This document shows positions 8,302 to 52,441 of a DNA stretch of 64,000 nucleotides, in pieces. Below the pieces are notes generated by a model. That model was not told where the DNA came from. It ran no database searches and saw nothing but the letters and a program-made list of their open reading frames with translations. Location: positions 186,001-250,000 of the forward strand of contig NZ_BONX01000044.1 in assembly GCF_016862935.1 (NCBI RefSeq). The letters run 5' to 3'. Both the position numbers and the translations under genes were made by a program. The stretch's first letter is position 1, and each line of letters begins with the position of its first letter. Source of the DNA: Plantactinospora mayteni (GTDB lineage Bacteria > Actinomycetota > Actinomycetes > Mycobacteriales > Micromonosporaceae).

Positions 8302-8327
8302 GAAAGCCGTTCCTTCCGTAGGCCGCC

Positions 8328-8443: not shown

Positions 8444-8600
8444 GTTCGGCGGCGGTCACCGCCGGCACCCTCGACGGCGCCACCTGGCGGAGACCGCCGG
8501 TCAGCCTACCGGAAGCGGGCCGCCCTGTCGGCCCGGCTTTGACGTACCGCAATATCACATGAAGGGCTATGTTGTCGGCAAAGAGGCTGCTTGTCGCGGG

Positions 8601-12823: not shown

Positions 12824-13019
12824 CGGGCCGCTCCCCTCGATCCGGTCACGACGCCTCCTCGATCCGCTCCTCGCCGTCACGACCGAGCCGTTCCGTCACC
12901 CGGCCCTCCGTGCCCCGTCCGGTCGGGTCCGGCCCACGCCCACGACGACAATCCGCGCCGATCCTGTACCACCCAACGCTGCCACACAACAGAGGTGGCG
13001 CCGACCCGGCGCCCCGGCG

Positions 13020-13382
13020 TCACCGTGGGGCTTCCGCCGAGCCGGCCGGGTCCCGCAGGCGTACCTGTTCGGCCTGGTCTGCGATCACCTGCCCGAGCAC
13101 CCCGTGCAGCCGGCCGCAGTCGAGGCAGTGCAGGTTCTCGTCCAGCCGACGGCTCCCGCAACTCGCGCAGGTGCCCCGGTCGGCCCGGTCCCGATAGCCG
13201 GCCAGCGCCTCGGCCAGCGCCCGGGCCAGGTGCGGGGTGAGCGGAATCGTCCCGGCCTCTCCACCGGACCGGACGTCGACGACGCCGACCGGCGCGGCAT
13301 CCGGCTCGGGGTCGTACGGCGCGACCCGGGCGACGAAGTCGCGCAGCACGGCGACGGGATCGGTCACTCGGTACCTGGACAT
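13020..13382 (-). CDS. Small zinc-ribbon-like protein of unknown function
   Basis: I do not recognise the family. The 120-residue product starts MSRYRV at the ATG at 13382. The C-terminal half carries two CxxC knuckles (CASCGSRR and, ten residues on, CLDCGRLHG), a compact four-cysteine zinc ribbon. The N-terminal 70 residues contain an Asp- and Pro-rich stretch and an amphipathic helix. There is no signal peptide or membrane segment. It is a single gene between the signalling operon and the divergent M28 peptidase. A role in nucleic-acid binding or as a protein adaptor is possible but is only inference from the ribbon. Confidence 0.7.
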   Translation of the reverse strand: MSRYRVTDPVAVLRDFVARVAPYDPEPDAAPVGVVDVRSGGEAGTIPLTPHLARALAEALAGYRDRADRGTCASCGSRRLDENLHCLDCGRLHGVLGQVIADQAEQVRLRDPAGSAEAPR

Positions 13383-13486
13383 GCGTATCACGCTATGCGA
13401 CCGGTCGTCCGCAGGGTGACCCGGCCGGCCGGGGAACGGGCCGACCGCGATGATGGCAGTCGCTGCCGACCCCCCTGGAGGCACCC

Positions 13487-15985: not shown

Positions 15986-16016
15986 CACGATCGTCGCCCG
16001 GAACGCCTTCCAGGTA

Positions 16017-16037
16017 CCGGACATCCGAGATGTCCGG
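16017..16037. terminator. Short perfect hairpin after the M28 peptidase gene
   Basis: CCGGACATC, CGA and GATGTCCGG make a perfect nine-base stem with a three-base loop, 32 bases past the peptidase stop. There is no U-tract, as is usual for terminators in GC-rich actinomycetes. It could instead be a protein-binding dyad. Confidence 0.5.
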
Positions 16038-16082
16038 CTGACGGCCCATCGCATTAGAACGGGCCAGGTGCGGTGGGCCGGT

Positions 16083-16115
16083 CTCCGGCCGGCGGCGGCC
16101 AGCCGCCGGCCGGAG
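16083..16115. terminator. Strong bidirectional terminator between convergent peptidase and GH9 genes
   Basis: A perfect 14-base inverted repeat (CTCCGGCCGGCGGC and its complement) encloses the five-base loop GGCCA. It lies between the ends of the plus-strand peptidase gene and the minus-strand cellulase gene, so it can serve both transcripts. Confidence 0.75.
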
Positions 16116-16165
16116 TCCACGCGCTGGATCGTCCGGCGCGGCGGCCGGGCGCCGCCGCCGTCCCG

Positions 16166-38406: not shown

Positions 38407-38595
38407 CCGCGCCCCGGCCGACAACCTCCGGAGCTGGGAGGGAGCCTGGTCGAGTCCCGGCCGACGACCTCCCGAGCCGCGCCGGAGCCTGACCGGGTTC
38501 CTGCCCGACGGTCCACACCGAACCCCTCAGCGGGGTTGCCGAGGCGATCCGGCGGTGCTTGGCTGAGATCCCTTCCGGTTCCGTTGGGGGTGTCC

Positions 38596-39834
38596 GTGCC
38601 GCCGCCGTCCCTCGACGATCCCGCCGCGCTGCGCCGTGGCCGGGTCGCGGTGTCGCTGCTGTTCCTGCTCTTCGGGATGGCCATCGGCACCTGGACGGCC
38701 CGGATCCCGGCGGTCAAGGAGGAGCTGGGACTGACCGACGGCCAGCTCAGCGTGGGCCTGCTCGGGCTCGCCGCCGGCGCCATCACCGGCATGCAGCTGA
38801 CCGGGCGCCTGGTCGACCGGTACGGCAGTGCCCGGGTGATGCTGCCGGTCGCCTTCGCCGAGGCCGGTTGCCTGCTGCTGCCCGGGTACGCCACCAACCT
38901 CGGCACGCTGGCCCTGGCCCTCTTCGTCTTCGGCACCGTGCACGGCACCCTGAACATCGCGATGAACGCCAACGCGGTCGAGGTGGAACGCGCGCGGCGC
39001 CGCCCGATGCTCTCGTCGTGCCACGCGGTCTACAGCATCGGTGGCTTCCTCGGCGCCGCGGTCGGCGGTCTCTTCGCCCGCGCCGACGCCAGCGTCCCGG
39101 CCACCTTCTGGGCAACCGCGCTGGTCGCGCTCGGCCTCGCCAGTTGGTCCACCCGCTGGGCCCTGCCGCGCATCGCACCCGCCGAGCCGCCGACGACCGC
39201 CGACGCCACCGAGGTCGTGGGCGCGGGGCAGCCCGGACAGCGACGGGAGCCGCCAAGCGTGCTGTTCCTCGGCGTACTGGCGTTCTGCTGCCTGGTCGGC
39301 GAGGGTGCCGCCGCGGACTGGAGCACGGTCTACCTGCGGGACAATCTGGGCAGCGGTCCGGGCTTCGCCGCAGCCGCGTTCGCGGCCTTCTCGATCATGA
39401 TGACCGCCGGTCGGCTCGTCGGCGACCGGCTGGCCGCCGCCCTCGGGCCGGTGGTCCTGGTACGCGGCTGCGGGATCCTGGCCGCCGTGGGGCTCGGCGG
39501 CGCGCTGCTGGTCGACCACCCGGTCGCCGGGTTGGTCGGGTTCGGCTGCCTCGGCGCCGGCCTCTCCTGCATCGCACCGCAGGTCTTCTCGGCCGCCGGA
39601 AACCGGGACCCGAGCCAGGCCGGCCGGGCCCTGGCCCGGGTCGCCGGCCTGGGTTACCTGGGCTTCCTCGTCGGGCCGGTGGTGATCGGCGGCGCCGCCG
39701 AACTGTTCGGGCTGCCCCGCGCCCTGGCGCTCCCGGCCCTGCTCGCGCTCTTCGTCGCGCTCGCCGCCGGAGCGGTCCGCCCCCGGCCGGGGCGGTCGCG
39801 CCCCGCCGAACCGGTCAGCGCGGACCCACAATGA
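38596..39834 (+). CDS. Major facilitator superfamily transporter
   Basis: This is a 12-helix membrane transporter of about 412 residues. The motif A region between helices two and three reads GRLVDRYGSARV and helix one has FLLFGMAIGTWTARIP. Related proteins in actinomycetes are annotated as MFS permeases of the FsrB/YbjJ type, exporting small molecules. An exact start is uncertain: GTG at 38596 (or 38590) follows the G-rich GTTGGGGGTG. The substrate is unknown. The stop at 39834 runs into a 15-base repeated motif. Confidence 0.88.
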   Translation: MPPPSLDDPAALRRGRVAVSLLFLLFGMAIGTWTARIPAVKEELGLTDGQLSVGLLGLAAGAITGMQLTGRLVDRYGSARVMLPVAFAEAGCLLLPGYATNLGTLALALFVFGTVHGTLNIAMNANAVEVERARRRPMLSSCHAVYSIGGFLGAAVGGLFARADASVPATFWATALVALGLASWSTRWALPRIAPAEPPTTADATEVVGAGQPGQRREPPSVLFLGVLAFCCLVGEGAAADWSTVYLRDNLGSGPGFAAAAFAAFSIMMTAGRLVGDRLAAALGPVVLVRGCGILAAVGLGGALLVDHPVAGLVGFGCLGAGLSCIAPQVFSAAGNRDPSQAGRALARVAGLGYLGFLVGPVVIGGAAELFGLPRALALPALLALFVALAAGAVRPRPGRSRPAEPVSADPQ

Positions 39835-39847: not shown

Positions 39848-39944
39848 CCGCACCGGCCTCCCCGCCCGGAGCCCTTGAACCGGCCGGGTCAGGTCCCGTT
39901 GCCCACCCCGAGCGGTACTGGATATATTTACCTCCGTCGTCGCG

Positions 39945-39958
39945 TGGGAGCGTTCCCA
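39945..39958. promoter_or_regulatory. CebR-like operator upstream of the SGNH-like/GT2 gene pair
   Basis: TGGGAGCGTTCCCA matches TGGGAGCGCTCCCA at 13 of 14 positions and keeps both half-sites perfect. It lies 43 bases before the ATG at 40001. A LacI-family repressor of the CebR type, or a paralogue with the same half-site, is the expected binder. Confidence 0.75.
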
Positions 39959-40000
39959 TACGAGGTAGCCGTGAGTACGGGACGGGGTGAGGTCGGCCGC

Positions 40001-40765
40001 ATGAGCACGATCCGGCTGCTCGTGGTGAACGGGTGCAGCTTCGCCCGGGGCGCCGAACTCGCCGACCCGGACCGGGACGCCTGGCCGGCCGTACTCGGGC
40101 GGGAGCTGGGCGTCGGCGTGGTCAACCTGGCCTGTGACGGCGGCTCCAACCGGCGGGCCGTCCGGACCACCGTGCAGCACCTGGAGTCGATCCGGGCGGC
40201 GTACGGGGTCGGGTACGACCAGATGCTCTTCGTCAACATGTGGACCGCGCTGAGCCGCAACGAATACCACGACAGCGGGATCGAGGACGGCCCGGTCCGC
40301 CCCGACCTCGGGGTACGCCCGGCGCTCCCCGGTGAGCTGCACTGGCAGCGGGTCGCCGACTGGAAGGCCGCCGAGGGGGACAAGCCGTCGAAGGCGTACC
40401 TCCGGCACCTGTTCAGCACCACCGGCGAGACGGTGAACTTCTTCGTGGACTGGCTGCTACTGGAGCACCACCTCACCGGTCGCGGCGTGCCGAGCCGGTT
40501 CGCGTTCGCCTGGGAGATCCTGCCCGACCCGATCCCCGCCGAGGCGGTACCGGTGATGCGCGCGCTCCGCGCCGACCTGGTCTTCGGAGCGCTGCCGCCC
40601 CGTCCGGAGGACACCTTCCGGGAGATGGTCTTCGGCCGGGTCCCGTTCGGCGACTGGGACCATCCGCTCCGGGAGGGGCACCAGCACTTCGCCGCCGCGA
40701 TGCTGCGCTGGCTCGGCGGTGACGAGCGGCTGCGCTTTCCACCGAGCGGACGGAGCCGGCGATGA
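40001..40765 (+). CDS. SGNH-hydrolase-like protein of unknown function
   Basis: This is a 254-residue cytosolic protein. It starts STIRLLVVNGCSFARGAELA, where NGCSF is a GDSL block I-like element, and has NLACDGGSNRRAV (block II/III-like, Gly and Asn). The ending WDHPLREGHQHFAAAML carries a DxxH-like pair. Proteins of this build occur near glycosyltransferases in glycan loci and may be acyl esterases or transferases, but none is well characterised. The gene follows a CebR-like operator and overlaps the GT2 gene start by four bases (ATGA). Confidence 0.7.
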   Translation: MSTIRLLVVNGCSFARGAELADPDRDAWPAVLGRELGVGVVNLACDGGSNRRAVRTTVQHLESIRAAYGVGYDQMLFVNMWTALSRNEYHDSGIEDGPVRPDLGVRPALPGELHWQRVADWKAAEGDKPSKAYLRHLFSTTGETVNFFVDWLLLEHHLTGRGVPSRFAFAWEILPDPIPAEAVPVMRALRADLVFGALPPRPEDTFREMVFGRVPFGDWDHPLREGHQHFAAAMLRWLGGDERLRFPPSGRSRR

Positions 40766-41715
40766 CCGTACCGTCGATGACCGCGACCGTGGCGAGCCCG
40801 GCCGGAGATCTGGTGGCGAGCCCGGCAGGAGATCTGGATGGGCGGCCCCGGCCCGGGCTGGTGTCGGTGATCATGCCGGCCCGCGACGGCGCCGCGACCA
40901 TCGGCGCGCAACTGGCGGCGCTGGCCCGGCAGACCTACCCCGGACGCTGGGAACTCGTCGTGGTCGACAACGGCTCCACCGACGGTACGCCGGAACTGGT
41001 CGCCGCCTTCGCCAGCCGGCTGCCCGGGCTCCGGCTGCACCGGGCGGGCGGCCGGGCCGGCACCAGCTACGCCCGCAACGAGGGCTGCCGGGTGAGCCGG
41101 GGCGAGTTGCTGCTCTTCTGCGACCAGGACGACGTGGTCGCGCCCGGGTGGGTGGCCGAGATGGTACGCGGACTCGCCGAGTTCCCCGCCGTCGGCGGCC
41201 ACGTCGAACGCCGACTGCTCAACGACGACGTCTCGCTGGCCACCCGCCCCGAGAAGCCGGCCGGCTCGCTCCAGGAGGGATTCGACTTCCTCCCCTACGC
41301 GCTCGGCGCCAACTGCGGGGTACGCCGGGGCGTCTTCGAGGAGCTGGGCGGCTTCGACCCCGCCTACCGGTACGGCTCGGACGAGGTGAGCTTCTTCTGG
41401 CGGGCGCAGCTCGCCGGGTACCCGATCGGGGCGCTGCCGGACGCGGTGGTGCACTACCGGCTGCGTCGCCGGCTCCGGGAGATGGCCCGGCAGTACTACT
41501 CCTACGGCCTCAGCCACCCCCGGCTGTACCGGGACTTCGCCGCCGCCGGGCTACCCCGCTCGGTCCGGCCGGCCGCCCGGGAGTGGCGCTGGCTCCTCGG
41601 CCACCTGCCCGACCTGGTCCGGTCCCGCAAGTCCCGGGCCGTCTGGGTGACCCGGTGCGCGATGCGCTGCGGCCGGATCGTCGGCAGCCTGCGTAACCGG
41701 GTCGTCTTCCCGTAA
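40762..41715 (+). CDS. Family 2 glycosyltransferase
   Basis: This 317-residue GT-A fold glycosyltransferase has N-terminal VSVIMPARDGAATIGAQL, the nucleotide-site VVVDNGSTDGTPELV, the metal-binding acidic motif FCDQDDVVAPGWV, an ED-like GSDEVSFFWRAQL and the basic C-terminal part. There is no membrane segment, so it is a soluble or peripheral enzyme transferring a sugar from a nucleotide donor. The first 30 residues contain a direct repeat (VASPAGDL twice). The last 165 bases overlap the antisense-coded tail of the Gfo/Idh gene on the other strand. Confidence 0.9.
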   Translation: MTVPSMTATVASPAGDLVASPAGDLDGRPRPGLVSVIMPARDGAATIGAQLAALARQTYPGRWELVVVDNGSTDGTPELVAAFASRLPGLRLHRAGGRAGTSYARNEGCRVSRGELLLFCDQDDVVAPGWVAEMVRGLAEFPAVGGHVERRLLNDDVSLATRPEKPAGSLQEGFDFLPYALGANCGVRRGVFEELGGFDPAYRYGSDEVSFFWRAQLAGYPIGALPDAVVHYRLRRRLREMARQYYSYGLSHPRLYRDFAAAGLPRSVRPAAREWRWLLGHLPDLVRSRKSRAVWVTRCAMRCGRIVGSLRNRVVFP

Positions 41716-42858
41716 CCGGACCGGCGGACCGGCAGCCGGGGCGGGCCAGCCGTCCGCCACCGTCGGCCGTTGGTCCTGCACCGCCGGCCGGTGGTCCTGC
41801 GCCGCCAGCCGGTTGTCCTGCGCCGCCAGCCGGTGGTCCGCCACCGCCGGCCAGTGGTCGTCGGCCGGATAGCGCACCCCGGTGCGGGCCCGGACGGTGT
41901 CCAGGATCCGCAGCACCGCCACGGTGTCGGCCAGGGTGGCGAGCGGGCTCTCGGTCAGCCCGGCCCGCAGGCAGCGCATCACCTCGACCGCCTCGTGCAC
42001 GAACCCCTCCCCCTGATAGGGCACCTCGACGGTCCGGGGCTCGGCATCGCCCCGGTGCAGGGTCAGCCAGGCCGGTCGGAAGAACCCCCGGCCCAGCTCG
42101 ATCCGGCCGGCGCTGCCGCAGACCGTGGCCGTCCACGGCGTGTCGGCGACGATCGAGCAGGAGAGGCTGGCCAGCGCCCCGTCCGGATAGCCCAGTACCA
42201 GCGCGGTGGTCTCGTCGACGCCGTACGGGCTCAGGGTGGCGGCCCCGGTGACCGAGTCGGGCACCCCGAGCAGCAGATGGGCCAGGGTCACCGGATAGAC
42301 ACCGAGGTCCAGCAGGGCACCACCGCCGAGCGCCGGGTCGCGCAGCCGGTGGCCGGGGTCGACCGGCCCCACCAGGCCGAAGTCCGCCTGCACCAGCCGG
42401 GGTACCCCGATCGCGCCGTCCCGGACCAGGGTCACCAGCCGGCGGATCGCCGGTACGCAGCGCATCCACATCGCCTCCATCAGGAAGAGGCCGGCGGAGC
42501 GGGCCCGGGCCACCAGTTCGACGGCCTGGCCGGCGTTGAGGGTGAACGGCTTCTCGCAGAGCACCGCCCGGCCGGCGTCCAGACAGAGCGCGGTCGCGGC
42601 GTGGTGACTCGCGTGCGGGGTCGCCACGTAGACGACGTCGACCCGGTCGTCGGCGGCGAGCCCGGCCCAACCGCCGTGGGCGTACGGGATCGCGTACCGG
42701 GTGGCGAAGCGTTCGGCCGCCTCCGGGGTACGCGAGCCGACCGCCACCACCTCGGCGTCCGGCAGCCGGTGCAGGTCCTCGACGAACCGTCCGGCCATCC
42801 AGCCGGTACCGAGCACACCCCACCGGATCGGCCGGACGGGCACGTCCGCCCCGCTCAC
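41551..42858 (-). CDS. Gfo/Idh/MocA-family oxidoreductase with long low-complexity tail, last gene of the cyclase operon
   Basis: This NAD(P)-dependent sugar or cyclitol dehydrogenase has N-terminal Rossmann motif WGVLGTGWMAGRFV, then VDVVYVATPHASHH, the catalytic-site CEKPFTLN and a GGGALLDLGVYP C-terminal domain. The enzyme core ends near residue 335. Another 100 or so residues follow, made of DNRLAAQ / DHRPAVQ-type heptads and a Pro/Ala/Gly-rich run. They are coded across a short repeat block and over the antisense of the GT2 gene, as if the original stop was lost. GTG at 42858 overlaps the isomerase stop. The substrate is probably a polyol, sugar or cyclitol. Confidence 0.87.
   Translation of the reverse strand: MSGADVPVRPIRWGVLGTGWMAGRFVEDLHRLPDAEVVAVGSRTPEAAERFATRYAIPYAHGGWAGLAADDRVDVVYVATPHASHHAATALCLDAGRAVLCEKPFTLNAGQAVELVARARSAGLFLMEAMWMRCVPAIRRLVTLVRDGAIGVPRLVQADFGLVGPVDPGHRLRDPALGGGALLDLGVYPVTLAHLLLGVPDSVTGAATLSPYGVDETTALVLGYPDGALASLSCSIVADTPWTATVCGSAGRIELGRGFFRPAWLTLHRGDAEPRTVEVPYQGEGFVHEAVEVMRCLRAGLTESPLATLADTVAVLRILDTVRARTGVRYPADDHWPAVADHRLAAQDNRLAAQDHRPAVQDQRPTVADGWPAPAAGPPVRLREDDPVTQAADDPAAAHRAPGHPDGPGLAGPDQVGQVAEEPAPLPGGRPDRAG
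41755..41861. repeat. Degenerate 24-base tandem repeats in the tail of the Gfo/Idh gene
   Basis: Units of the form GGTGGTCCTGCGCCGCCAGCC recur about five times with point differences. They encode the heptad-like Asp-x-Arg-x-Ala-x-Gln repeats of the extension. The block lies between the enzyme core and the region overlapping the convergent glycosyltransferase gene, and probably arose by slippage. Confidence 0.7.
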
Positions 42859-43787
42859 CGGCCGGACCCCGCCGCACCGGCCAGCGCCGCCGTACCGGTC
42901 GACGACAGCTCCCCGGCCGCCTCCGCCGCCTCGGCCGACGCGTGCCGGCGGGCCAGGTCGTCGCGGAGCGCCAGGCAGTCGCGTACGTAGTCACCGGCTC
43001 GGGCGATCGGCGGATGCGGGTCACCGTCACCGCAGTACTCGACACAGATCGCCGGTACGCCGAGCGAGTCCGCCCTGGTGATCCAGGCGTAGTTGTCGAG
43101 TACTCCGTCGGCGGTGTCCACGTTGAAGTCGGCCCGACCGCCGTCCGGGCGCAGGTTCTTCAGGTGGAAGTAGCCGAGCCGACCGGCGAGCTGGTCGAGC
43201 ACGGCCGGATCCCGGTCGGCCGGACTGACCACGTAGGCGTTGCCGGGGTCCGCCGTGGCGACCACGGCCGGATGGTCCACCATCGCCAGCAGCTTCGCGG
43301 TGCCGGACACCGTGTCGTGCACCGAGCCGGGATAGACCTCCACCCCCACCCGTACGCCGTGCCGGGCCGCGTACTCGCCGAGCCGGCGGTAGCCCTCGGC
43401 GGCCCGCTCGTAGTGCACCGGTCCGGCCAGGGCGCTGCCGTTGACCCGCCAGTCGTCCGGGTCCCGTTCCAGCGTCCCCGACCAGCCGTTGACCAGCGCG
43501 ATCCCCTGCTCGGCGGCGGCGGCGATGGTGCGCTCGGCCAGGGCCAGCGAGGCGGCCCGGGCCGCCGGGTCGTCGCCGACGAAGTCTCCGGTGTAGCCGA
43601 CGCAGTACACCTCCACCCCGTAGTGCCGGCCGAGCGCCGCCGCTGCCGCGACCTCGGTCTCGACCCGGGCCGGGTCGAAGTGGAAGTGCACCAGCTCGAC
43701 GCCGTCCCAGCCGTGCCGCGCGGCGACCGCGAAGACGTGCCGCAGCGGATAGCGGCGGAAGGTGTAGCTGTGCAGGACGAGCTTCAT
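42855..43787 (-). CDS. Sugar phosphate isomerase/epimerase (xylose-isomerase-like TIM barrel)
   Basis: This 310-residue AP-endonuclease-2 / IolE-IolI type TIM barrel reads MKLVLHSYTFRRYPL, WDGVELVHFHFD, VEVYPGSVHDTV, ATADPGNAY, GYFHLKNLRPD and CVEYCGDGD. These supply the spaced Glu, Asp, His and Glu metal ligands of the family. Members interconvert ketoses, inososes or related sugars. Starts and stops overlap both neighbours by four bases (ATGA and GTGA), placing it firmly in the seven-gene operon. Its natural partner could be either Gfo/Idh enzyme, as in inositol catabolic and cyclitol biosynthetic pathways. Confidence 0.9.
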   Translation of the reverse strand: MKLVLHSYTFRRYPLRHVFAVAARHGWDGVELVHFHFDPARVETEVAAAAALGRHYGVEVYCVGYTGDFVGDDPAARAASLALAERTIAAAAEQGIALVNGWSGTLERDPDDWRVNGSALAGPVHYERAAEGYRRLGEYAARHGVRVGVEVYPGSVHDTVSGTAKLLAMVDHPAVVATADPGNAYVVSPADRDPAVLDQLAGRLGYFHLKNLRPDGGRADFNVDTADGVLDNYAWITRADSLGVPAICVEYCGDGDPHPPIARAGDYVRDCLALRDDLARRHASAEAAEAAGELSSTGTAALAGAAGSGR

Positions 43788-44794
43788 GGGTTCTGCCCTC
43801 CGGTCAACGCCAACCGCACTCCGCCGTTGGCAACGCTTCGTTCGAGTGCGTGCAGTACCCGCAGGTCCCGCAGCCCGCGGGCGACACCCACCTCGACCGG
43901 TACCGGCTGGCCCGCCGCGCTGGCGGCGAACGCCCGGTACTGGGCGAGGTACGGATCCACCGGCTCGGGGCGCAGCCAGCGCCGCCCCCGTTCGTCGCAG
44001 ACCAGCACCGAGCCGCCGGAGTCCATCGCCCACGAGTTCCGGACCACCAGCAGGCCCCGCTCGCAGACGACGGTGTAGCGCGAGATGCCGGTCTCCGGTG
44101 GCTCGGTGAAGGACGACTCGACCTGGAGCCGCCGCTCCTCGCCGAACCAGACGGTCGCCTCGACGAAGATCTCGGTCTGCTCACGATCGCCGGCCGGATA
44201 GCCGGTGGCCCGGCAGGCGGTGGGCGCCGCGTCGAAGACGTCGACGGCGGTCAGCAACGGATAGACCGCCAGGTCACCGAGGCAGCCGAGGCCGCTTTCG
44301 GCCCGCCGGTTGCGCCAGTCCCGCTCCCGGTGCCCGAGGTGGCAGGCGGCGATCGACCGGGGCGCGCCGAGCCGCCCGGAGCGGACCAGTTCCACCACCG
44401 CCCGGTTGTAGGCGTTGTACCGGGACATGTAGCCGACCATCGCCGGCGCACCCGAGGCGGTGGCGGCGCGCAGGATCCACTGTCCACCTGCGACGGTGTC
44501 GGCGAGCGGCTTCTCCACCAGGGTCGGGATGCCCCGGGCCAGGGCCCGGCAGGCGTACTCGGCGTGCCGCCGGTTGGGCGTCGCCACGTGCACCCCGTCC
44601 AGCGGCGTACGCAGGAAGTCCCGTACGTCCGTGCCGGACCAGATCCCCGGCACCTCGGCGCCCACCGCCCGCAGCGCCGCCTCGTCGGAGTCCAGTACGG
44701 CGACCAGGCGCAGGTCGTCGGCAGCGGCGATCGCCGGCAGCAGCGCTCGGCGGGTCAGGAACCCGGCGCCCACGATGCCGATCCGGAACGTCAT
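43784..44794 (-). CDS. Gfo/Idh/MocA-family oxidoreductase
   Basis: This 336-residue NAD(P)-dependent dehydrogenase begins MTFRIGIVGAGFLTRRALLPA, followed by DGVHVATPNRRHAEYA, the signature VEKPLADTV and CLGDLAVYPLL. The length is normal, with no extension, unlike its paralogue at the end of the operon. ATG at 44794 is chosen. The 12-base sequence ATGACGTTCCGG that opens the gene also occurs 46 bases upstream at the previous stop, a small duplication. In the family the Lys of EKP and a downstream His or Asp act in hydride transfer on sugars or cyclitols. Confidence 0.9.
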   Translation of the reverse strand: MTFRIGIVGAGFLTRRALLPAIAAADDLRLVAVLDSDEAALRAVGAEVPGIWSGTDVRDFLRTPLDGVHVATPNRRHAEYACRALARGIPTLVEKPLADTVAGGQWILRAATASGAPAMVGYMSRYNAYNRAVVELVRSGRLGAPRSIAACHLGHRERDWRNRRAESGLGCLGDLAVYPLLTAVDVFDAAPTACRATGYPAGDREQTEIFVEATVWFGEERRLQVESSFTEPPETGISRYTVVCERGLLVVRNSWAMDSGGSVLVCDERGRRWLRPEPVDPYLAQYRAFAASAAGQPVPVEVGVARGLRDLRVLHALERSVANGGVRLALTGGQNP

Positions 44795-44837
44795 CCGTCC
44801 CGCCCCGATCCACCGCAGCGGTGCCGCAGCCGGAACG

Positions 44838-46292
44838 TCATCGGACCGGCTCCGGTGCGCCGCGCCAGTGCAGCAGCAGGCTGCGCGGGGCGAGCGAACG
44901 GTGGGTGGCTCCGGCGATCGCGTCCAGGGTGTGCCGTTGCGCCGCCAGCGCGCCGTCCAGGGCCGGGTCACCGATGCGGACCGGCCGGTCCGGGTCGAGC
45001 AGTACCGCCACCCCGATCGAGCGGGTGTGCCAGACGAGTTGGTAGGAGTGGTGGTTCCAGCCGCTGCCCTCGTGCACCTCGACGGGGCGGCCGAGCCGCT
45101 CGGTCAGCAGTTCCGCCCCGAGCGCGGCGGCCGGGCCGGCGCCGTACGCGACGACGTGCACGGCGGTCAGGTCGGGGCGCCGGGCGAGCCAGTCGGCGAG
45201 TACCCCGGTCAGTTCGTCGGTGCCGGCCACCGCGCGGGCCCCGGCGGGCCGGTCGGCGGCGGTCGGTGTCGCCGGCAGCAGCCGCTTGTAGTGCGCGACC
45301 GCGTCGTGGGTGGCGAACCGCAGCCCGTGCCGGACCGCGACGCAGGCGACCAGGGCGGCGACCGCGTAGCAGGCGGCCATCGCGGCGGCGACCGCGCCGG
45401 CCGGCCCGGCAGGCCGGGACAGCCCGGCGATGCCCGCCGCGACGTCGACTACGAGCGCACCGGCGGCCGGCTCGGCCGCCACCTCCGGCCACGGCCGGAA
45501 CCGCTCGGACTTGCCGCCCCAACCCTGCCGGGCCGCCTGGAGGGTCCAGAGCCGCAGCCCCGGGCCGGCGCCGGGCGGCAGCCGGAACAGCACCCGGGGT
45601 CGGCCGGTCGCCGGCAACCGGGCGGACTCCTCGCCGGCCCACTCGCCGATCGTCCGGGCCGCGCCGGCGAACGCCCGGTAGGCGTCGTCGAAGTGCGGCC
45701 CGCTCAGCATCCGGGCGGCGAGCAGCGCCGGCACCGAGAGCGGGGCGTGGTAGAGGGCCACCTGGTCGCGCCCACCGCCGACCGAGAGGGTGCCGCCGCG
45801 CTCGCAGAGCCAGGCCGGGGCCGTCCCGCCGGTCCGCTGCCGGGCCAGCGCGAGGGTGGCGGCCAGCAGCCGGGTCTCCCGGGTACGCCCGGAGGCGCTG
45901 ACCGCGAAGCCGGCGGTGTCGGGCCGTCCATCCAGTTCGGACAGTGCGCGATGCACCGTCGCCGGGTCGAGGGAGTCCAGCACCCGGATCGCGGACTGTC
46001 CCGGCACCGCCTCGCAGATCGCCCGCAGCCCGAAGGCCCAGCCCCCGGTGCCGGCGAAGACCGCCCGGCGGCAGCCGCGCAGCAGGGTCCCGCCGGCGCC
46101 CCGTTCGGCGGTCAGCCGGGAGACCTTCGGCCAGGCCGGCGGGTGTACCCAGCCGAGCCGGGGCACTCCGGCGAGGCTGGCGAGCGCGGCGACCGTACCG
46201 GCCGGGCCGTGCCGTTCACCGCTGGCGGCGGCCCGCAGGTACGCCCAGAGTTCGGCGCCGCTCGGCTCGGCTCCCCAGCCCCGCGCGGTCAC
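44838..46292 (-). CDS. Divergent glucose-6-phosphate-isomerase-like (SIS fold) protein
   Basis: This 484-residue protein keeps the landmarks of phosphoglucose isomerase. FAGTGGWAFGLRAIC corresponds to the first sugar-phosphate loop, RVLDSLDPATVHRALSEL to the NVDP region, and FAVSASGRTRETRLLA to the phosphate-binding SKSGxTxET loop. A second SIS half contains WGGKSERFRPW and GSGWNHHSYQLVWHTRS. These motifs are altered from the housekeeping enzyme, so the substrate may be a related ketose or cyclitol phosphate. GTG at 46292 overlaps the ROK-dehydrogenase stop. Assignment by fold is fairly sure; activity is inference. Confidence 0.68.
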   Translation of the reverse strand: MTARGWGAEPSGAELWAYLRAAASGERHGPAGTVAALASLAGVPRLGWVHPPAWPKVSRLTAERGAGGTLLRGCRRAVFAGTGGWAFGLRAICEAVPGQSAIRVLDSLDPATVHRALSELDGRPDTAGFAVSASGRTRETRLLAATLALARQRTGGTAPAWLCERGGTLSVGGGRDQVALYHAPLSVPALLAARMLSGPHFDDAYRAFAGAARTIGEWAGEESARLPATGRPRVLFRLPPGAGPGLRLWTLQAARQGWGGKSERFRPWPEVAAEPAAGALVVDVAAGIAGLSRPAGPAGAVAAAMAACYAVAALVACVAVRHGLRFATHDAVAHYKRLLPATPTAADRPAGARAVAGTDELTGVLADWLARRPDLTAVHVVAYGAGPAAALGAELLTERLGRPVEVHEGSGWNHHSYQLVWHTRSIGVAVLLDPDRPVRIGDPALDGALAAQRHTLDAIAGATHRSLAPRSLLLHWRGAPEPVR

Positions 46293-48595
46293 GGCGTACC
46301 CGGGCGGGGCGGTGTCGGCGGCGGGGCCGGGGCCACCACCGTGCCGTCGAGCCGGAAGTCGACCACGACCCGCAGCGGGGAGCAGCCGGCGACCGTACCG
46401 TGGTCGAGCAGCTCGGTCGCCACCCCGGGCAGCGCGGGCAGCGAGACGAGGTGACTGACCAGCGGCGCCAGGTCGAGGGTGGGAGTGGCCGGGGCGTCCG
46501 GGGTGTCACCCCCGGTGAGCAGTTCGTGGGCGGCGGCGAAGTCGCCGGGCCGGCCGCCCCGGGAGCCGACCACGGTGCACCGGCCACCGGTCGGGTTCCG
46601 CACGACCCGGTGCCCGCCGCCGGCCCGCACCGGCCCCGGATCCAGCGCCGTGCCGCCGCCGACCCGGAGCAGCCGGCCGGGCCGGAAGCCGCCGAACAGG
46701 TGCAGTCCGGCCCCGTCGGCCAGCGCCGGCCAGGTGAGTTCGGCCGCCGCCGGCCCGCCGTCACCGGCCACCGCCAGCACGGCCAGCTCGGCGCCCCGGC
46801 CACAGGTGGCCGAGCGGACTCCGGCGGCTAGCCCGGGCCCGAGCGGCAGTACCGCGTCCGGGGTCGGCAGTCCACGCTGGATGGCCGCCCGAAGTCTCCG
46901 GTCGGTCCTGCCCGCCACGGTCACCGTACGGGCGCCCCGGGCGCGGGCGACGGCGACGTGCAACAGCCCGAGTACGCCGGCACCGACGACGAGGACGTCC
47001 CGACCGGCCCAGTCCGCGGCGAGGGTCCGGTGCGCCCGCAGTACCGCCGCCAGCGGCTCCAGCAGCACCCACTCCGGACCGCAGCCCGGCGGTACCCCGA
47101 CGAGCTGCCCCTGGGCCAGCGCACCCAGGTCGCTGACGAGGACGTCCCGGAACACCCCGGGCAGGTTGTGGCCGAGTTTGAGGTAGTCATCGGTCGGGTG
47201 GTTGGGGTTGAGCGTCACCAGGTCACCGGGGCGGAGCCCGGGTACGGCGGCACCCACCTCGACCACCTCGGCGACGCACTCGTGCCCGAGTACCCCCGGC
47301 TCCAGCCCCCGTTCGCCGCGCAGGATCTCCAGGTCGGTGCCGCAGAGGCCGGCGTACCTGGGTCGGAGCAGCACTTGCTCGGGACCGCAGCGCGGCCAGG
47401 TGCCGGTGGTCAGCACGAGCCGCGACTCGCCGACCGGCTTGACCACCTCGCGGGTCTCGGCCCGCCGCGCGTCGAGATAGCCGGCCATCCCGGCCAGGGT
47501 GGCGTGGTCCGCGTCCTCGGGTACGTGCAGCAGCCCGTCCCGCTCGGCGGCCGTCCAGCCGGAGAACCAGCCGGCGTCGACGCAGAACTCCGCCAGCCAC
47601 CCGCGCAGCGCGGCGAACCAGGGTACGCCGACCCCGTGCGCGAAGCCGCCGACCACCACCACCGAGCGGAGCCCGAGCTGGGCGCAGACCTGCAACAGTG
47701 CCACCGCGAGGTGCCGGGTCGCCGCGTGCAGCAGGTCGGTGACGAACGCGTCGCCGGTCCGGGCCGCGTCGGCGAGCGCCCGCCCGTCGATCCGGTCCGG
47801 GTCGCCGCCGACCAGCCGGTGCAGTACCGAGCCGGCGAAGTCGGCCGGATCGCGCCGGGCCCGCCGTACCGCCGCCCGCAACACGCCCGGCCCCGAGCTG
47901 TACGCGCAGAGGTCGGCCACCGCACCGCAGTCGCACCACGGCAGGTCCAGCCCGGCCAGTTGCTCGCGGGCGGCCCGGTCCCCGGCGGCGGCGGCCCGAC
48001 CGAGCCGGGCGGCCCCGGCCGGTCCACCGGGCACCGTGTCGAGCCGGCTCGGCTCCACCGGCACGTGCCCGATCTCCCCGCCCAGCCCGGCCGGGTCGGC
48101 GAGTACCTTGGCGGTGCCGGGAAGCCGGTCGTCGAAGACCTTGACCGCCACCCCGGTACTGACGGTGAGCAGGGCGAACCGGCCGAGTCGCCGATAGTGC
48201 CAGGCCGCGGCGGCCACGTCGTTGAGTACGGTCACCCGGGCCCACGGCAGCCGCGCCCGCAGCGCCGCCCGTACGTCGTAACCGGTCGACCGCGCCTGCC
48301 AGAGCACGCTGGCGTCCCGCACCACCCCCTCGGCGGTGACCACCGCACCGAAGGCGACCCCCAGCTCCCGCCGTCCGGTCGGCTCGGCGGCCCGGTGCAG
48401 CCGGTCGGCCTCCTCGGCGATCCGGTCCAGCAGACCGTCGCGGACGGTGGCCAGCGGAACGTCCGGCCGCCCTCGCCGGCTCGGGGTGGCGAACCGGACC
48501 ACCTCGCCGACCAGCCGTCCCGCCTCGGCCAGCGCCAACCGGGTCCAGGTGCCGCCGACGTCGACCACCACACTCCGCTCCGTCAGTCCGGTCAC
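46289..48595 (-). CDS. ROK kinase fused to a zinc-dependent medium-chain dehydrogenase
   Basis: This is a single 768-residue protein with two catalytic domains. Residues about 8-385 form a ROK sugar kinase: VVVDVGGTWTRLAL, the LNDVAAAAW catalytic Asp, GGEIGHVPV and a zinc motif CDCGAVADLC. Residues about 390-768 form a zinc alcohol dehydrogenase: GLCGTDLEIL (Cys), GHECVAEV (His-Glu) and VLVVGAGVLGLLHVA (NAD site). In known C7-cyclitol pathways a ROK-type kinase (AcbM, ValC) and a cyclitol dehydrogenase act in sequence, but as separate proteins. GTG at 48595 overlaps the cyclase stop (GTGA). There is no frame break between the domains. Confidence 0.87.
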   Translation of the reverse strand: MTGLTERSVVVDVGGTWTRLALAEAGRLVGEVVRFATPSRRGRPDVPLATVRDGLLDRIAEEADRLHRAAEPTGRRELGVAFGAVVTAEGVVRDASVLWQARSTGYDVRAALRARLPWARVTVLNDVAAAAWHYRRLGRFALLTVSTGVAVKVFDDRLPGTAKVLADPAGLGGEIGHVPVEPSRLDTVPGGPAGAARLGRAAAAGDRAAREQLAGLDLPWCDCGAVADLCAYSSGPGVLRAAVRRARRDPADFAGSVLHRLVGGDPDRIDGRALADAARTGDAFVTDLLHAATRHLAVALLQVCAQLGLRSVVVVGGFAHGVGVPWFAALRGWLAEFCVDAGWFSGWTAAERDGLLHVPEDADHATLAGMAGYLDARRAETREVVKPVGESRLVLTTGTWPRCGPEQVLLRPRYAGLCGTDLEILRGERGLEPGVLGHECVAEVVEVGAAVPGLRPGDLVTLNPNHPTDDYLKLGHNLPGVFRDVLVSDLGALAQGQLVGVPPGCGPEWVLLEPLAAVLRAHRTLAADWAGRDVLVVGAGVLGLLHVAVARARGARTVTVAGRTDRRLRAAIQRGLPTPDAVLPLGPGLAAGVRSATCGRGAELAVLAVAGDGGPAAAELTWPALADGAGLHLFGGFRPGRLLRVGGGTALDPGPVRAGGGHRVVRNPTGGRCTVVGSRGGRPGDFAAAHELLTGGDTPDAPATPTLDLAPLVSHLVSLPALPGVATELLDHGTVAGCSPLRVVVDFRLDGTVVAPAPPPTPPRPGTP

Positions 48596-50838
48596 CGACC
48601 GCTCCACGCCCAGGCCGGCTCACCGGCTCCGCCGGCCGGAGCCGGGGCCGGGGTCGGGGTCGGGGTCGGAGCCGGCGTCGGAGCCGGGGTCGGCGTCGGC
48701 GTCGGCGTACCGGACCGGCGGCGCAGCGCCGACCAGGCCCGGTGCAGGTCAGCCGGGCCGATCTCGTCGATCGAGTCGACGAACCCGCCGACCCCGATCC
48801 CGACCGGTACGGCCAGGTGCAGCTCGCCGCCCTTGTGCGGCAGTACGTGGCTGCGCAGTGCCCGCCACAGCTCCGCCGCGTCGCAGCAGTCGTCGTACGT
48901 CGGCAGCCCGATCCGGCGCAGCAGCGTCTCGGTACGGTCGGCGACGGACTCCGGCAGCCGCCCCGCGGCCACGCCCAGCCGGCAGGAGAGCGCCATCCCG
49001 ATCGCCACCGCCTCGCCGTGCCGGAGCCGGTAGCCGGACCGCTCCTCCAGTACGTGCCCGAACTCGTGGCCGAAGTCGGCCAGCCGGCGCAGCCGCCGCT
49101 CCCAGGGGTTCTCCTCCAGCTCGACCAGCATCGCGGCGACCGCGCGCCGGAGCACCTCGTCGAGCACCGGGGCGGCGCCGGGGTCGCGCAGCACGGCGTG
49201 GTGCTCCTCGACCAGGCGGTAGAGGTGGGCGTCCCGGACCAGTGCGATCTTGACGATCTCGGCCAGCCCGCACCGGAACTCGGCATCCGGCAGGGTCGCC
49301 AGGAATCCGGCGTCGCAGAGGCAGGCCAGCGGCGGATGGTACGCCCCGAGCAGGTTCTTCCGGCCGTCCAGGTCGACGCCGACCTTCAGCCCGACCCCCG
49401 CGTCGACCAGCCCGACCAGGGTGGTCGGGACGCGCAGGTACGGCGTACCGCCGGGGTGGCAGGCGGCGACGTAGCCGACCAGGTCGAGCACCGTACCGCC
49501 GCCGACCGCCAGGATCCGGTCGCCGGGCCCGAGGCCGAGCCGGCGTACCCGCCGCAGCAGCCGCCCGGCGGCGTCGAAGGTCTTGCCCCGGGGCGAGCTG
49601 CGTACCGGCAGCACCGTGCAACCGGCGAGCCGCCCCTGCCGGTACCGCCGGTCGAGCGCGTCCCGGACGGCGGCGGTGACGGCCGGCGAGTAGTCGTCCA
49701 CCACCGCCAGCACCCGGGCGCCGGCCGGCAGGTATCCGGAGAGCACCGGGTTGTCCGGGGCGAGGACCCCGGCGGTGAAGCTGACCCGGTAGCCCAGCTC
49801 CCGAATCCGGTGCACCCGGACCGGCGCCGGCACCGACGACCGCCGCCCCGGTCCCGGCACGGCGGAGGCCGAGGACGTGCCCGGCAAGGACGTGCCCGGC
49901 AAGGACGTGCCCGGCACACCGGACGCCGGGAGCACTGCCGGCCGCCCCGGCGCCTGGTCGAAGCCGGCGTTCGGTGTGCCGGGTGCCGGGAGCACTGCCG
50001 GCGCTTCGGACGCCGAGGAGACCGCCGGGGCGCCGGCCGCCGACGGGGGTGCCGGTGGGTGCGCCGGCCAGATCCGGTGGTCGCCGGGGCCGTGCCGGTG
50101 CAACAGTCGGGCCACCGCGGCCAGCGCCGCCCGCCGGATCAGTGCCGGGTCGGCAGCCCGGTCGAGCTGGTCGGCGAGTACGTCGTCGTGGCCGGCGAGG
50201 TGGCGGAGCGCCGACTCCTCGTCGGGGCGTACCGGGGTGGGATCGGCGAGCAGGGTGTCCACGTCGACCAGCAGCACGGGATCGCGTGCCTCGGCGGCGA
50301 GCGCCGGTTCGCCGGCCAGCACCCGGGCGCTCCAGTGCAGGGAGGCCAACAGCGACGGCAGGTCGTCGTGCACCCGGACCGCGTGGGCGTACCGGCGGTA
50401 CATGGCGGCGGCCAGCGCGGTGGTGGCGGTTGCCGGCGGCCCGGCGAGGGAGACGAAGGCGTCCCGCCGGCCGAGCCCGGTCGCGACGGCGGCCCGCACC
50501 ACCGCGCGTACCGGATCGGGGCCGTCCGGCGCGGCGAGGTCACCGGCGTCGACGGTTCGGTGCTGGTCGAGCGCGCCGCGTTCCCGCCAGTACCCGAGAT
50601 AGGTGTCGAGCCGGCGGCGCCGCTCCGGCCGGTCGCCGACGGCGAGGACCCGGCGCGCACCGCCGAGCGCCCGCAGCAGGGTGGCGTCGCCGGGCCGCCA
50701 CAGGTCCCGCCGCATCCGCAGCTCGAAGGTGTCGATCAGCTCGGCCCGGAGCGTGTCCTTGTGCCCGGGCGGGGACACCGCCGGGCTGGGCAGGTCGCGG
50801 GGCCGGGCCAGGGCCGCGGCCCCGGAGGTCGACGACAT
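48592..50838 (-). CDS. Double-domain sugar-phosphate cyclase (2-epi-5-epi-valiolone synthase/dehydroquinate synthase superfamily)
   Basis: This is a 748-residue protein. The C-terminal domain (about 345-720) is a complete cyclase: GGGTVLDLVGYVA (NAD site), RVPTTLVGLVDAGVGLK, GRKNLLGAYHPP, and zinc ligands in GLAEIVKIAL (Glu), DFGHEFGH (His) and RHGEAVAIG (His), ending LHLAVPVGIGVGGF. The VGLVDAGVG and PVGIG segments are closer to sedoheptulose-7-phosphate cyclases (AcbC, ValA) than to AroB. The N-terminal 30-255 aligns to the same fold (GLGRRDAFVSLAG, AAAMYRRYAH) but has lost the glycine loop and zinc ligands. Pro/Ala/Ser-rich linkers, including a Thr-Pro tail, surround the domains. Confidence 0.85.
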   Translation of the reverse strand: MSSTSGAAALARPRDLPSPAVSPPGHKDTLRAELIDTFELRMRRDLWRPGDATLLRALGGARRVLAVGDRPERRRRLDTYLGYWRERGALDQHRTVDAGDLAAPDGPDPVRAVVRAAVATGLGRRDAFVSLAGPPATATTALAAAMYRRYAHAVRVHDDLPSLLASLHWSARVLAGEPALAAEARDPVLLVDVDTLLADPTPVRPDEESALRHLAGHDDVLADQLDRAADPALIRRAALAAVARLLHRHGPGDHRIWPAHPPAPPSAAGAPAVSSASEAPAVLPAPGTPNAGFDQAPGRPAVLPASGVPGTSLPGTSLPGTSSASAVPGPGRRSSVPAPVRVHRIRELGYRVSFTAGVLAPDNPVLSGYLPAGARVLAVVDDYSPAVTAAVRDALDRRYRQGRLAGCTVLPVRSSPRGKTFDAAGRLLRRVRRLGLGPGDRILAVGGGTVLDLVGYVAACHPGGTPYLRVPTTLVGLVDAGVGLKVGVDLDGRKNLLGAYHPPLACLCDAGFLATLPDAEFRCGLAEIVKIALVRDAHLYRLVEEHHAVLRDPGAAPVLDEVLRRAVAAMLVELEENPWERRLRRLADFGHEFGHVLEERSGYRLRHGEAVAIGMALSCRLGVAAGRLPESVADRTETLLRRIGLPTYDDCCDAAELWRALRSHVLPHKGGELHLAVPVGIGVGGFVDSIDEIGPADLHRAWSALRRRSGTPTPTPTPAPTPAPTPTPTPAPAPAGGAGEPAWAWSGR

Positions 50839-50842
50839 CGCC

Positions 50843-52339
50843 TCACACCGACGCTTGCTCGGCGCAGGCCCGGCGCAGCAGCTCGACCAGCGGCTGGCGC
50901 GGCCGGCACCGGTCGAACCGGAACGAGCGCATCAGCTCGTCGATCGCCGCCTCGTCCATCCCCCGGAACAGCTCGCCGAACTCCGGCAGCAGCGCCTCGG
51001 CGAAGAGGATCTGCGGCACCAACCGGCCGATCAGGAACTCGCTGCCGAACGGAAACGGCAGGTAGTCCGGGAACTCCCGGGCGAACAGCTCCTGGAGCGG
51101 GCGCATCACCTGCTGGATCTGGTCGTGCCGGCCGCCCCAGAGGTCGACGCCGAGCCGGGCCTTCTTCTCCAGTACCGGCCGGATCCGGCGCATCCACGGG
51201 CTCTCCGGGTCGACGGTCAGCGGCGCCGCCACCCCGATGTCCTTGTAGGGCCAGAACGCCCAGTTGGCCCGGTGCCGGGTGTAGATCTCGAACTGGTCGG
51301 CGAGCAGGTCGAGCCGCATCCGGTCCCGTTCGGGTTCGCCGGTGAAGACCGCGTTGAACTCGCCGACGTAGACCGGCGTACCGGTGCGGAGCATGTACTC
51401 GCTGCGCTTGAGGTAGGTCCGCTCCAGCACACTCGCGTCGAAGTACTGGTCCCGGGACTGGTCCGGCAGCAGGATGCCGTGCTCGTAGCCGATGCCGTCC
51501 GGGGACTCCCAGACGTGGGTCAGGTGTGCCACCCCGGGGTAGCGACCGTCCGGTACGTAGCCGGGCGGCGCGTAGTCGTGGTGCGAGTAGACCACGTTGG
51601 GCAGCGGTTCGGCGTAGACGTCGAAGTCGTTGGAGTAGCGGTTGCCCTCCAGGATCACGATGTGCTCCGGGTCGACCTCGCGGATCGCCTCGACGAGCCG
51701 GCGCGAGTACGGCCCGATCACCTCCCCGGTCGGGTCGGCCGGCTCGTTGACCGGGTTGTACGCGGCCACCCACGGCTCGTCCCGGTAGCGGCCGGCGATC
51801 TCCCGCCAGAGGTGTACGACCCGGTCCTGGAAGTGCGGGTGCTGCCAGAACTGGGCCACGTGGGTGGGGTTGTCGCTGTGCCAGTCCTGGTTCTGCCAGC
51901 CGGGCAGCGCGTGCAGGTCGATGATGGTGCGTACGCCGACCGCGGCGAGCAGCTCGATGGCCCGGTCCAGGTGGTGGAAGCCGGACTCCACGATCTCGAA
52001 CGGTCGCCGGTCGTCCTCCAGGTGCCGGTAGTTGACCGGGATCCGCACCACGTTGCAGCCCAGCCCGGCGATGAACCGGGCGTCGTCGGCGGTGAAGAAG
52101 TGCTCCAGGAAGCGGTCGAAGAAGAACCGTGCCCGCTCCGGCCCGAGTACGTCCCGCACGGCAGCCCGCATGCCCTGCTCGTACGCCGGGAATCCGGTCA
52201 TCCAGTTCTCGAAGTTGAGCCAACCGGCGAGGCCAATGCCCCGCCAGATAACCGGCTGCCCGTCGCCGTCGACTATTTGATCGCCATTGGTCCGGAGAAA
52301 TCCTCCGGGGCATGCCAAAGCAAACCGGGACACGGACAT
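50843..52339 (-). CDS. Intracellular GH5-type (cellulase-fold) glycoside hydrolase, first gene of the cyclase operon
   Basis: This 498-residue TIM-barrel glycosidase reads VIWRGIGLAGWLN, CNVVRIPVNYRHL, IIDLHALPGWQN, the general acid YNPVNEPAD (Glu) and the nucleophile VYVGEFNAV (Glu), with WAFWPYKD at the end of the barrel. These match clan GH-A family 5. A C-terminal helical part of about 120 residues is extra. There is no signal peptide, so it should act in the cytosol on a small glycoside rather than on polymeric cellulose. ATG at 52339 is chosen. It is separated by four bases from the cyclase gene and lies about 100 bases from a CebR-like site. Confidence 0.85.
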   Translation of the reverse strand: MSVSRFALACPGGFLRTNGDQIVDGDGQPVIWRGIGLAGWLNFENWMTGFPAYEQGMRAAVRDVLGPERARFFFDRFLEHFFTADDARFIAGLGCNVVRIPVNYRHLEDDRRPFEIVESGFHHLDRAIELLAAVGVRTIIDLHALPGWQNQDWHSDNPTHVAQFWQHPHFQDRVVHLWREIAGRYRDEPWVAAYNPVNEPADPTGEVIGPYSRRLVEAIREVDPEHIVILEGNRYSNDFDVYAEPLPNVVYSHHDYAPPGYVPDGRYPGVAHLTHVWESPDGIGYEHGILLPDQSRDQYFDASVLERTYLKRSEYMLRTGTPVYVGEFNAVFTGEPERDRMRLDLLADQFEIYTRHRANWAFWPYKDIGVAAPLTVDPESPWMRRIRPVLEKKARLGVDLWGGRHDQIQQVMRPLQELFAREFPDYLPFPFGSEFLIGRLVPQILFAEALLPEFGELFRGMDEAAIDELMRSFRFDRCRPRQPLVELLRRACAEQASV

Positions 52340-52441
52340 GCCACCCCCTGCCTTTCCCGTCGTCGGGTGCATTGCCCGTTCGGATCGATATTGACTCAAT
52401 ACGATGGGGCGACAATCGTCAAGGGGTCGAGCATGATCAAA

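Follow-up and report, generated by a model that had tools for sequence, protein, structure and literature searches.

A Plantactinospora mayteni operon with a tandem sugar phosphate cyclase, a candidate pathway to an undescribed C7 carbasugar

Roles in the early acarbose pathway have been given to AcbC, AcbM, AcbO, AcbL, and AcbN, and the cyclitol kinases AcbM and ValC are ROK-like (PMC9200736, in the part available). Streptol, from Burkholderia leaf-nodule symbionts, is a nitrogen-free C7 cyclitol attributed to a route of the 2-epi-5-epi-valiolone synthase (EEVS) type (PMC8599487, in an excerpt), and the ebo operon pairs a xylose-isomerase-like protein with EboD, an uncharacterized cyclase that falls on the sedoheptulose side of the tree (PMC5133447, likewise in an excerpt). 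Here we describe a seven-gene operon on the minus strand of a 64,000-nucleotide stretch of the 9.84-Mb P. mayteni genome (contig NZ_BONX01000044.1, C44:186001-250000), hereafter the window. Its cyclase carries a degenerate second half in front of the catalytic one, and on balance we think that the operon directs the biosynthesis of an undescribed C7 carbasugar (cyclitol), with Arg149 of the degenerate half acting in trans. New here are the tandem form of the cyclase, the split decay seen in its arginine pattern, and an active-site set of its own. The matches listed in our literature searches included no description of a Plantactinospora cyclitol operon or of a tandem cyclase, no search having been aimed at the tandem or fusion itself.

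The operon resembles the early acarbose/validamycin pathway (AcbC-AcbM-AcbO-AcbL-AcbN, as far as the source excerpt describes it) in combining a cyclase, a ROK-type cyclitol kinase, a dehydrogenase, and an epimerase-class gene. It differs in that kinase and dehydrogenase are fused and that two Gfo/Idh oxidoreductases, a phosphoglucose isomerase (PGI)-like protein, and a GH5 glycosidase are added. We take AcbL to be a zinc-type dehydrogenase, as is the dehydrogenase of the fusion. A further difference is that no aminotransferase, nucleotidyltransferase, or pseudoglycosyltransferase was found among the seven genes, as the first-pass annotation of the window had noted, nor among the five flanking genes scanned or the operon genes of a relative from another genus (genome G007). 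Judged on these genes, the locus is not a C7N-aminocyclitol cluster, and the lack of amine-forming and nucleotide-forming genes leads us to expect an unaminated carbasugar. Going by published descriptions, available in part, the ebo operon is similar in placing a sedoheptulose-side cyclase beside a xylose-isomerase-like gene and dissimilar in its UbiA-type, metallo-hydrolase, and phosphate hydrolase partners. The likeness to streptol, a C7 cyclitol without nitrogen, is one of product description.

Placement and active site of the catalytic domain

The catalytic part of the cyclase (residues 338-692) found its best match in the Protein Data Bank (PDB) in ValA (4p53, E 3.2e-58), with Mycobacterium tuberculosis AroB at 2.9e-49. 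It fits the sugar phosphate cyclase superfamily, having the NAD-binding GGG motif together with E527, H591, and H607, which we take to be the metal ligands. A tree and residue counts were obtained for 25 cyclases, comprising eight tandem sequences, seven of them from one genus, and 17 others, 10 of which are sedoheptulose-type. Incomplete stretches from PDB alignments (ValA, DDGS, M. tuberculosis AroB, and BtrC) and the cyclase part of a ROK fusion (L040) were included. Omitted were a weak match that by eye is not a true cyclase (L024), a viral-contig relative (L049), single-domain matches of three genomes (G013, G020, and G077), and AroB-like matches of other Plantactinospora genomes; the tree also held neither AcbC sequences, AcbC itself lying outside the sequence comparison, nor the characterized 2-epi-valiolone synthases (EVS), which are those of Actinosynnema and Stigmatella.

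The eight tandem cyclases formed one clade (100/98) inside an 18-row clade of sedoheptulose 7-phosphate cyclases (100/97), which takes in EEVS-like and DDGS-like sequences and a Streptomyces/Micromonosporaceae group. AroB (100/99) and 2-deoxy-scyllo-inosose synthases (DOIS; 100/99) lay apart from them. BtrC, L038, and L040 were flagged as long branches, and 9 of the 22 inner branches were weak. By this placement the window cyclase appears to belong with the sedoheptulose 7-phosphate cyclases (EEVS/DDGS) and not with AroB or DOIS. The first-pass annotation had assigned it to that type and had set a grouping with AroB as a check beforehand; in a tree with ValA, DDGS, and AroB, the enzyme stayed apart from AroB.

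Eleven residues of the pocket for 3-deoxy-D-arabino-heptulosonate 7-phosphate (DAHP) are listed for M. tuberculosis dehydroquinate synthase (DHQS) in the available part of PMC6262012. Ten could be placed, K323 not being alignable with confidence; the tandem enzymes keep eight and, in 8/8 cases, have Met in place of K228 and Asp in place of N246. The 10 other sedoheptulose-type rows have Met at K228 throughout and Asp at N246 in eight. On these two replacements and the tree we reject a reading as AroB, with which the window cyclase shares the fold family, the NAD motif, and His595. Assignment as a DOIS is likewise rejected on residues and tree, the DOIS rows standing on a separate side (100/99). 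ValA, the best solved relative, shares Met570, Asp588, and Arg584, and ValA-type synthases differ in that the window cyclase is a tandem protein with a degenerate half, has lost an Arg from its catalytic half, has His595 in place of Pro, and falls in a separate clade. The combination Met-Arg-Asp-His-His at K228, R242, N246, H249, and H253 was found in 0 of the 17 other rows.

A degenerate half that keeps an arginine pair

The N-terminal ~335 residues of the cyclase consist of a separate, degenerate cyclase-like half and a linker, a feature absent from the first-pass annotation. An hhalign comparison of eight sequences over residues ~37-160 with nine independent cyclases gave a probability of 97.8% (E 6.6e-13, 124 columns), and 97.9% was reached with a set that included the tandem catalytic domains. 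Six controls (GH5, TIM barrel, Gfo/Idh, ROK, PGI-like, and reversed cyclases), four of them made of two sequences each, gave 0.1-0.3%. As a pairwise example, the extra domain of G007 is 30% identical to ValA over 166 columns.

The NAD-binding GGG motif is lost in all eight pseudo-domains. At the position of the second Arg in the ValA motif YRRATPYVRIPTT, 17/17 other cyclases have Arg and 8/8 tandem catalytic domains have Gly (G463); 8/8 pseudo-domains have Arg there and keep both R148 and R149. We take this column to be that of Arg130 of Aspergillus nidulans DHQS, a residue that binds the substrate phosphate from the neighboring subunit. In three comparisons, dN/dS was 0.42-0.55 for residues 33-160, 0.97-1.07 for the linker, and 0.27-0.44 for the catalytic domain; pseudo-domain residues 33-160 are thus under constraint and the linker is not.

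From these sequences we infer that the cyclase may be an intramolecular pseudo-heterodimer. DHQS domains form dimers, and those of Aro1 are what mainly keeps its two chains together (PMC9074039, in the part available). A more specific scenario, to which we give somewhat less than even credence, is that duplication and fusion were followed by split decay: one half would have lost NAD and metal binding and kept the across-dimer Arg, the other would have kept catalysis and lost that Arg, and neither would work alone. In this scenario the enzyme would open a C7 carbasugar route, and its product would be one that EEVS, EVS, and DDGS enzymes do not make.

The same C7-cyclitol pathway could also operate with an N-terminal half that is a structural or dimerizing leftover without catalytic role, fold constraint and drift accounting for the arginine pattern. 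The weak constraint on residues 161-262 (dN/dS 0.59-0.75), the poor domain models, and the origin of 7/8 tandem sequences in a single genus all agree with such a leftover. We nevertheless regard it as unlikely, given that both arginines are kept in every pseudo-domain although each has lost its GGG motif, and that the catalytic half has Gly in 8/8 sequences, including two members whose identity to the window protein is as low as 47% and 43%.

The operon, its relatives, and its surroundings

The seven minus-strand genes at 41551-52339 are one operon (Table 1). The coordinates in the first-pass annotation were borne out by the open reading frame listing, translation, and codon-position GC, and the gene families it named agree with Pfam or, for the PGI-like protein, with a profile search. 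The junctions that it had described as mostly four-base overlaps are such in 4/6 cases (cyclase/ROK, ROK/PGI, Gfo/TIM, and TIM/Gfo); a 4-bp gap separates GH5 from the cyclase and a 46-bp gap separates PGI from Gfo.

Table 1. Coordinates of the operon genes, cyclase domains, and adjoining features in the window
Feature	Position	Strand	Evidence or remark
Palindrome CGTATTGAGTCAATATCG	52386-52403	-	46 bp before GH5 start
GH5 glycosidase	50843-52339	-	Pfam Cellulase (GH5) 8.5e-30
Tandem sugar phosphate cyclase, 748 aa	48592-50838	-	Pfam DHQ_synthase PF01761 1.9e-29, PF24621 6.8e-29
Cyclase pseudo-domain, residues ~37-160	50359-50730	-	Degenerate cyclase N-domain; hhalign 97.8%, E 6.6e-13
Catalytic cyclase domain, residues 338-700	48739-49827	-	M570, R584, D588, H591, H595; G463
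ROK kinase fused to zinc-type (MDR) dehydrogenase, 768 aa	46289-48595	-	Pfam ROK 8.6e-11 and ADH_N 2.9e-13
Divergent PGI-family (SIS) protein	44838-46292	-	Profile match to glucose-6-phosphate isomerases
Gfo/Idh oxidoreductase 1	43784-44791	-	Pfam GFO_IDH_MocA 6.6e-20
Xylose-isomerase-like TIM barrel (epimerase/isomerase/dehydratase class)	42855-43787	-	Pfam AP_endonuc_2 4.9e-27
Gfo/Idh oxidoreductase 2	41551-42858	-	Pfam GFO_IDH_MocA 4e-23
Convergent GT2 glycosyltransferase	40762-41715	+	Pfam 5e-26

The nearest solved relative of the GH5 protein is 9ku5 (glycoside hydrolase, 'Putative beta-xylosidase GE32'; 1e-92). Its NEP and GEFN motifs were read by eye as acid/base and nucleophile, no signal peptide was seen by eye, and an in-frame ATG 11 codons upstream of the start used is also a possible start. 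The ROK half of the fusion has DVGGT and NDVAAA in 6/6 Plantactinospora rows, and DMGGT and NDIAAA in G007; we take these to be the ROK ATP motif and the catalytic Asp, and on its sequence the half would fit the ROK cyclitol kinase family. The PGI-like protein had no Pfam match at E 0.01, and searched as a single sequence it had no glucose-6-phosphate isomerase match; nor was an alignment with Escherichia coli K-12 PGI obtained. A profile of eight PGI-like relatives, unlike the single sequence, matched glucose-6-phosphate isomerases in 3/3 hits up to E 1 (best 1zzg, E 8.4e-6), over the first domain only (about the first 100 conserved positions). Weak PDB relatives of the TIM barrel include AsbF (3dx5, E 0.00093).

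Scanning the named genomes with six short patterns yielded two relatives, P. endophytica and P. alkalitolerans, and a profile search found the tandem cyclase in 6/7 Plantactinospora genomes (none in G005). All seven genes occur in the same order in 5/7 (the window genome, G002, G003, G004, and G006); the comparison of gene order proposed in the first-pass annotation thus favored its view of the locus. Since the order of the set is preserved within the genus and, with added genes, in a second genus, we consider the association more than chance.

P. alkalitolerans (G001) has a decayed copy 1 (L006/L015) and a divergent second operon. In copy 1, as read from a draft assembly, no ROK-dehydrogenase gene is present, GH5 has shrunk to 66 codons, still in frame and with an intact leader, and the histidine kinase next to the copy is also internally shortened. 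The second operon (L016, G001:C218:31001-51000, about 8065-17295) seems to complement the decayed one. It is 69% (GH5), 55% (ROK-dehydrogenase), 57% (Gfo/Idh), and 57% (TIM barrel) identical to the window operon, and its cyclase is 49% identical in the catalytic part and 39% in the N-domain. Its PGI-like gene is cut to 194 residues, a GT2-like gene is added, and the second Gfo/Idh was not found in the 20 kb read. Copy 2 thus keeps GH5 and the ROK-dehydrogenase, and copy 1 the second Gfo/Idh and the PGI-like gene.

Two overlapping family samples of 81 and 101 genomes were searched, the best 9 to 13 candidates per genome being scored. Among these candidates, a full tandem cyclase outside Plantactinospora was found in one genome, G007, the sole one sampled for its genus; in the 101-genome sample it was present in five, four of them Plantactinospora, and the match in G042 covered the catalytic part only. 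Among 119 genomes of the phylum (E 1e-60, best 9 to 13 candidates each), the tandem form was seen only in the window genome, and two others matched its catalytic part. Of 115 matched plasmid records, none covered 80% of the query, and no tandem cyclase was found among them. Of two scans of viral contigs for cyclases, one gave none and the other a single locus that was not used (L049, IMGVR_UViG_3300021962_006154), a cyclase relative with 34% identity over query residues 121-359 of 411.

The G007 operon reads GH5 (frame-shifted), cyclase, ROK-dehydrogenase, PGI-like, HAD phosphatase-like, ABC ATPase, ABC-2 membrane protein, GT2-like, Gfo/Idh, and TIM barrel. Its ABC ATPase resembles GldA (1.4e-38), DrrA (5.8e-38), and NodI (1.1e-37), each below NCBI's cut-off.

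On the Agrobacterium vitis plasmid pRvVAR031a (L045, NZ_AP023270.1 500296-518748), a cyclase, ROK, MDR, short-chain dehydrogenase (SDR), isomerase/epimerase, and MFS gene likewise stand in one row, the ROK being 28% identical to the ROK half over 330 columns and the MDR 34% identical to the dehydrogenase half over 167 columns. This row differs in its single-domain cyclase, separate ROK and MDR genes, an SDR in place of Gfo/Idh, and the lack of GH5 and PGI-like genes. It is itself a possible C7-cyclitol cluster outside actinobacteria. A Streptomyces clavuligerus plasmid row consists of ROK, cyclase, a 'hypothetical' protein that matches the dehydrogenase half at 32%, alcohol dehydrogenase, aminotransferase, epimerase, and HAD protein. 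Both plasmid rows, with kinase, dehydrogenase, and cyclase side by side, support a joint action of these enzymes on a C7 cyclitol.

The palindrome before GH5 is a probable operator, judging from its sequence and conservation. The pattern CGNATTGANTCAATATCG has one site in the whole genome at up to two mismatches, this palindrome, which recurs upstream of GH5 in 6/6 aligned Plantactinospora loci (four exact, one with one change, and one with two) within a leader that is well conserved overall. Next to the operon stand a divergent histidine kinase and a LuxR-type regulator, both kept in the genus. Convergent to it lie a DUF6071 gene and the GT2 gene (39944-41715), the latter overlapped by the 3' end of Gfo/Idh 2 over 165 bp. 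Both are kept beside the operon in the genus, DUF6071 in 5/5 and GT2 in 4/5 other Plantactinospora loci searched, GT2 not being found at P. alkalitolerans copy 1; this GT2 is a possible partner of the operon. An MFS transporter of unassigned direction is encoded at 38590-39834.

Other cyclases were seen in the same data. The window genome has a DOIS-like gene at C2:26349-27062 (L021; BtrC 2d2x, E 2e-53), which groups in the tree with related genes of G003 and G004 and may lie in an aminoglycoside-type cluster. In an actinomycete of another family, a 770-residue stop-to-stop frame (L040, G106:C1:6207555-6208508) joins a ROK-like kinase, read by eye, to a cyclase, so that two pathway steps are again fused. 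L035, L036, and L043 form a clade of their own (100/100) with a GHTFGP motif, and in Streptomyces sp. NBC_00467 this group has cupin and aminotransferase neighbors.

Proposed pathway and its weighing

Built on the gene content, its conservation, the cyclase placement, the degenerate half, and the arginine swap, the pathway would begin with conversion of sedoheptulose 7-phosphate, the presumed substrate, into a C7 keto-cyclitol by the tandem cyclase. The catalytic half would hold NAD, metal, and substrate, and the N-terminal half would take the place that a second subunit has in the usual dimer, Arg149 reaching into the active site in place of the Arg lost at Gly463. The ROK half would then phosphorylate the cyclitol and the fused zinc dehydrogenase would act on the ketone or a ring hydroxyl, after which, in an order that is only a suggestion, the TIM barrel, the PGI-like protein, and the two Gfo/Idh enzymes would adjust stereochemistry and oxidation state. 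The GH5 enzyme would act inside the cell, perhaps removing a glucose-like group. The HAD, GT2-like, and exporter genes of G007 suggest dephosphorylation, glycosylation, and export; with GT2-like, HAD sugar-phosphatase-like, and ABC-2 exporter genes added between the G007 and L016 relatives, the final product is probably glycosylated and exported. The earlier interpretation of the locus as an undescribed C7-cyclitol pathway is supported, insofar as sequence comparison can speak to it.

Several points weigh against this reading. The position of H253 (H595) is His in 8/8 tandem cyclases, as in AroB and DOIS, and Pro (nine) or Ser (one) in the 10 other sedoheptulose-type cyclases, ValA and three EEVS-like rows having Pro, a His-versus-Pro distinction for EEVS that is our own reading of the alignment; the reaction may therefore differ from that of EEVS. 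By alignment, we take this column to be His275 of the A. nidulans enzyme. According to PMC7144000 (in an excerpt), that residue accepts the proton during the first oxidation. As for the arginine swap, the DAHP-pocket list in the available part of PMC6262012 does not include the swapped Arg, whose across-dimer role we take from general background. With three sequences only, hhalign gave a non-significant probability of 1.5%, so the signal needs the divergent members. AlphaFold models built from three sequences had a mean predicted local distance difference test score of 43.7 for the whole cyclase and 55.0 for the N-terminal half alone; Foldseek matched the whole model to DHQS and ValA at E 2e-8 to 4e-8 with TM-scores of 0.16-0.17, and the N-domain model alone to DHQS first, at E 0.14. 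Structure thus adds little, and the pseudo-domain interface is a prediction. GH5 may be dispensable, since it carries a frameshift in G007 and a deletion has removed it from one of the P. alkalitolerans copies, and a BLAST comparison of the TIM barrel with the A. vitis isomerase gave no match at E 0.1.

Alternatively, the genes could form a sugar-catabolic operon in which GH5 frees a sugar, ROK phosphorylates it, the PGI-like, TIM barrel, and Gfo/Idh enzymes process it, and the cyclase has been recruited for a side reaction. Catabolic operons do commonly contain GH5, ROK, PGI-like, Gfo/Idh, and xylose-isomerase-like genes, and the nearby MFS transporter could serve in either direction. However, a scan of the seven genes and five flanking ones turned up no ABC sugar importer, the ABC-2 pair of G007 has an ATPase resembling exporters (below NCBI's cut-offs), and the cyclase falls in the sedoheptulose-type clade, so we consider this explanation improbable. 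A 2-deoxy-scyllo-inosose route, with the PGI-like protein supplying glucose 6-phosphate, would account for that gene and for the H595 common to DOIS and AroB but is very improbable, as the tree splits the cyclase from DOIS at 100/99, the Lys and Glu of DOIS are Met and Asp in this enzyme, and the same genome encodes the separate DOIS-like gene on contig C2.

Acarbose and validamycin are among the natural products that start from this enzyme family, and a lineage in which the active-site set has changed and amine-forming genes are lacking points to a product not yet seen. The tandem cyclase would also be a natural test of why DHQS-type enzymes dimerize, and of whether a single arginine from the partner is the reason.

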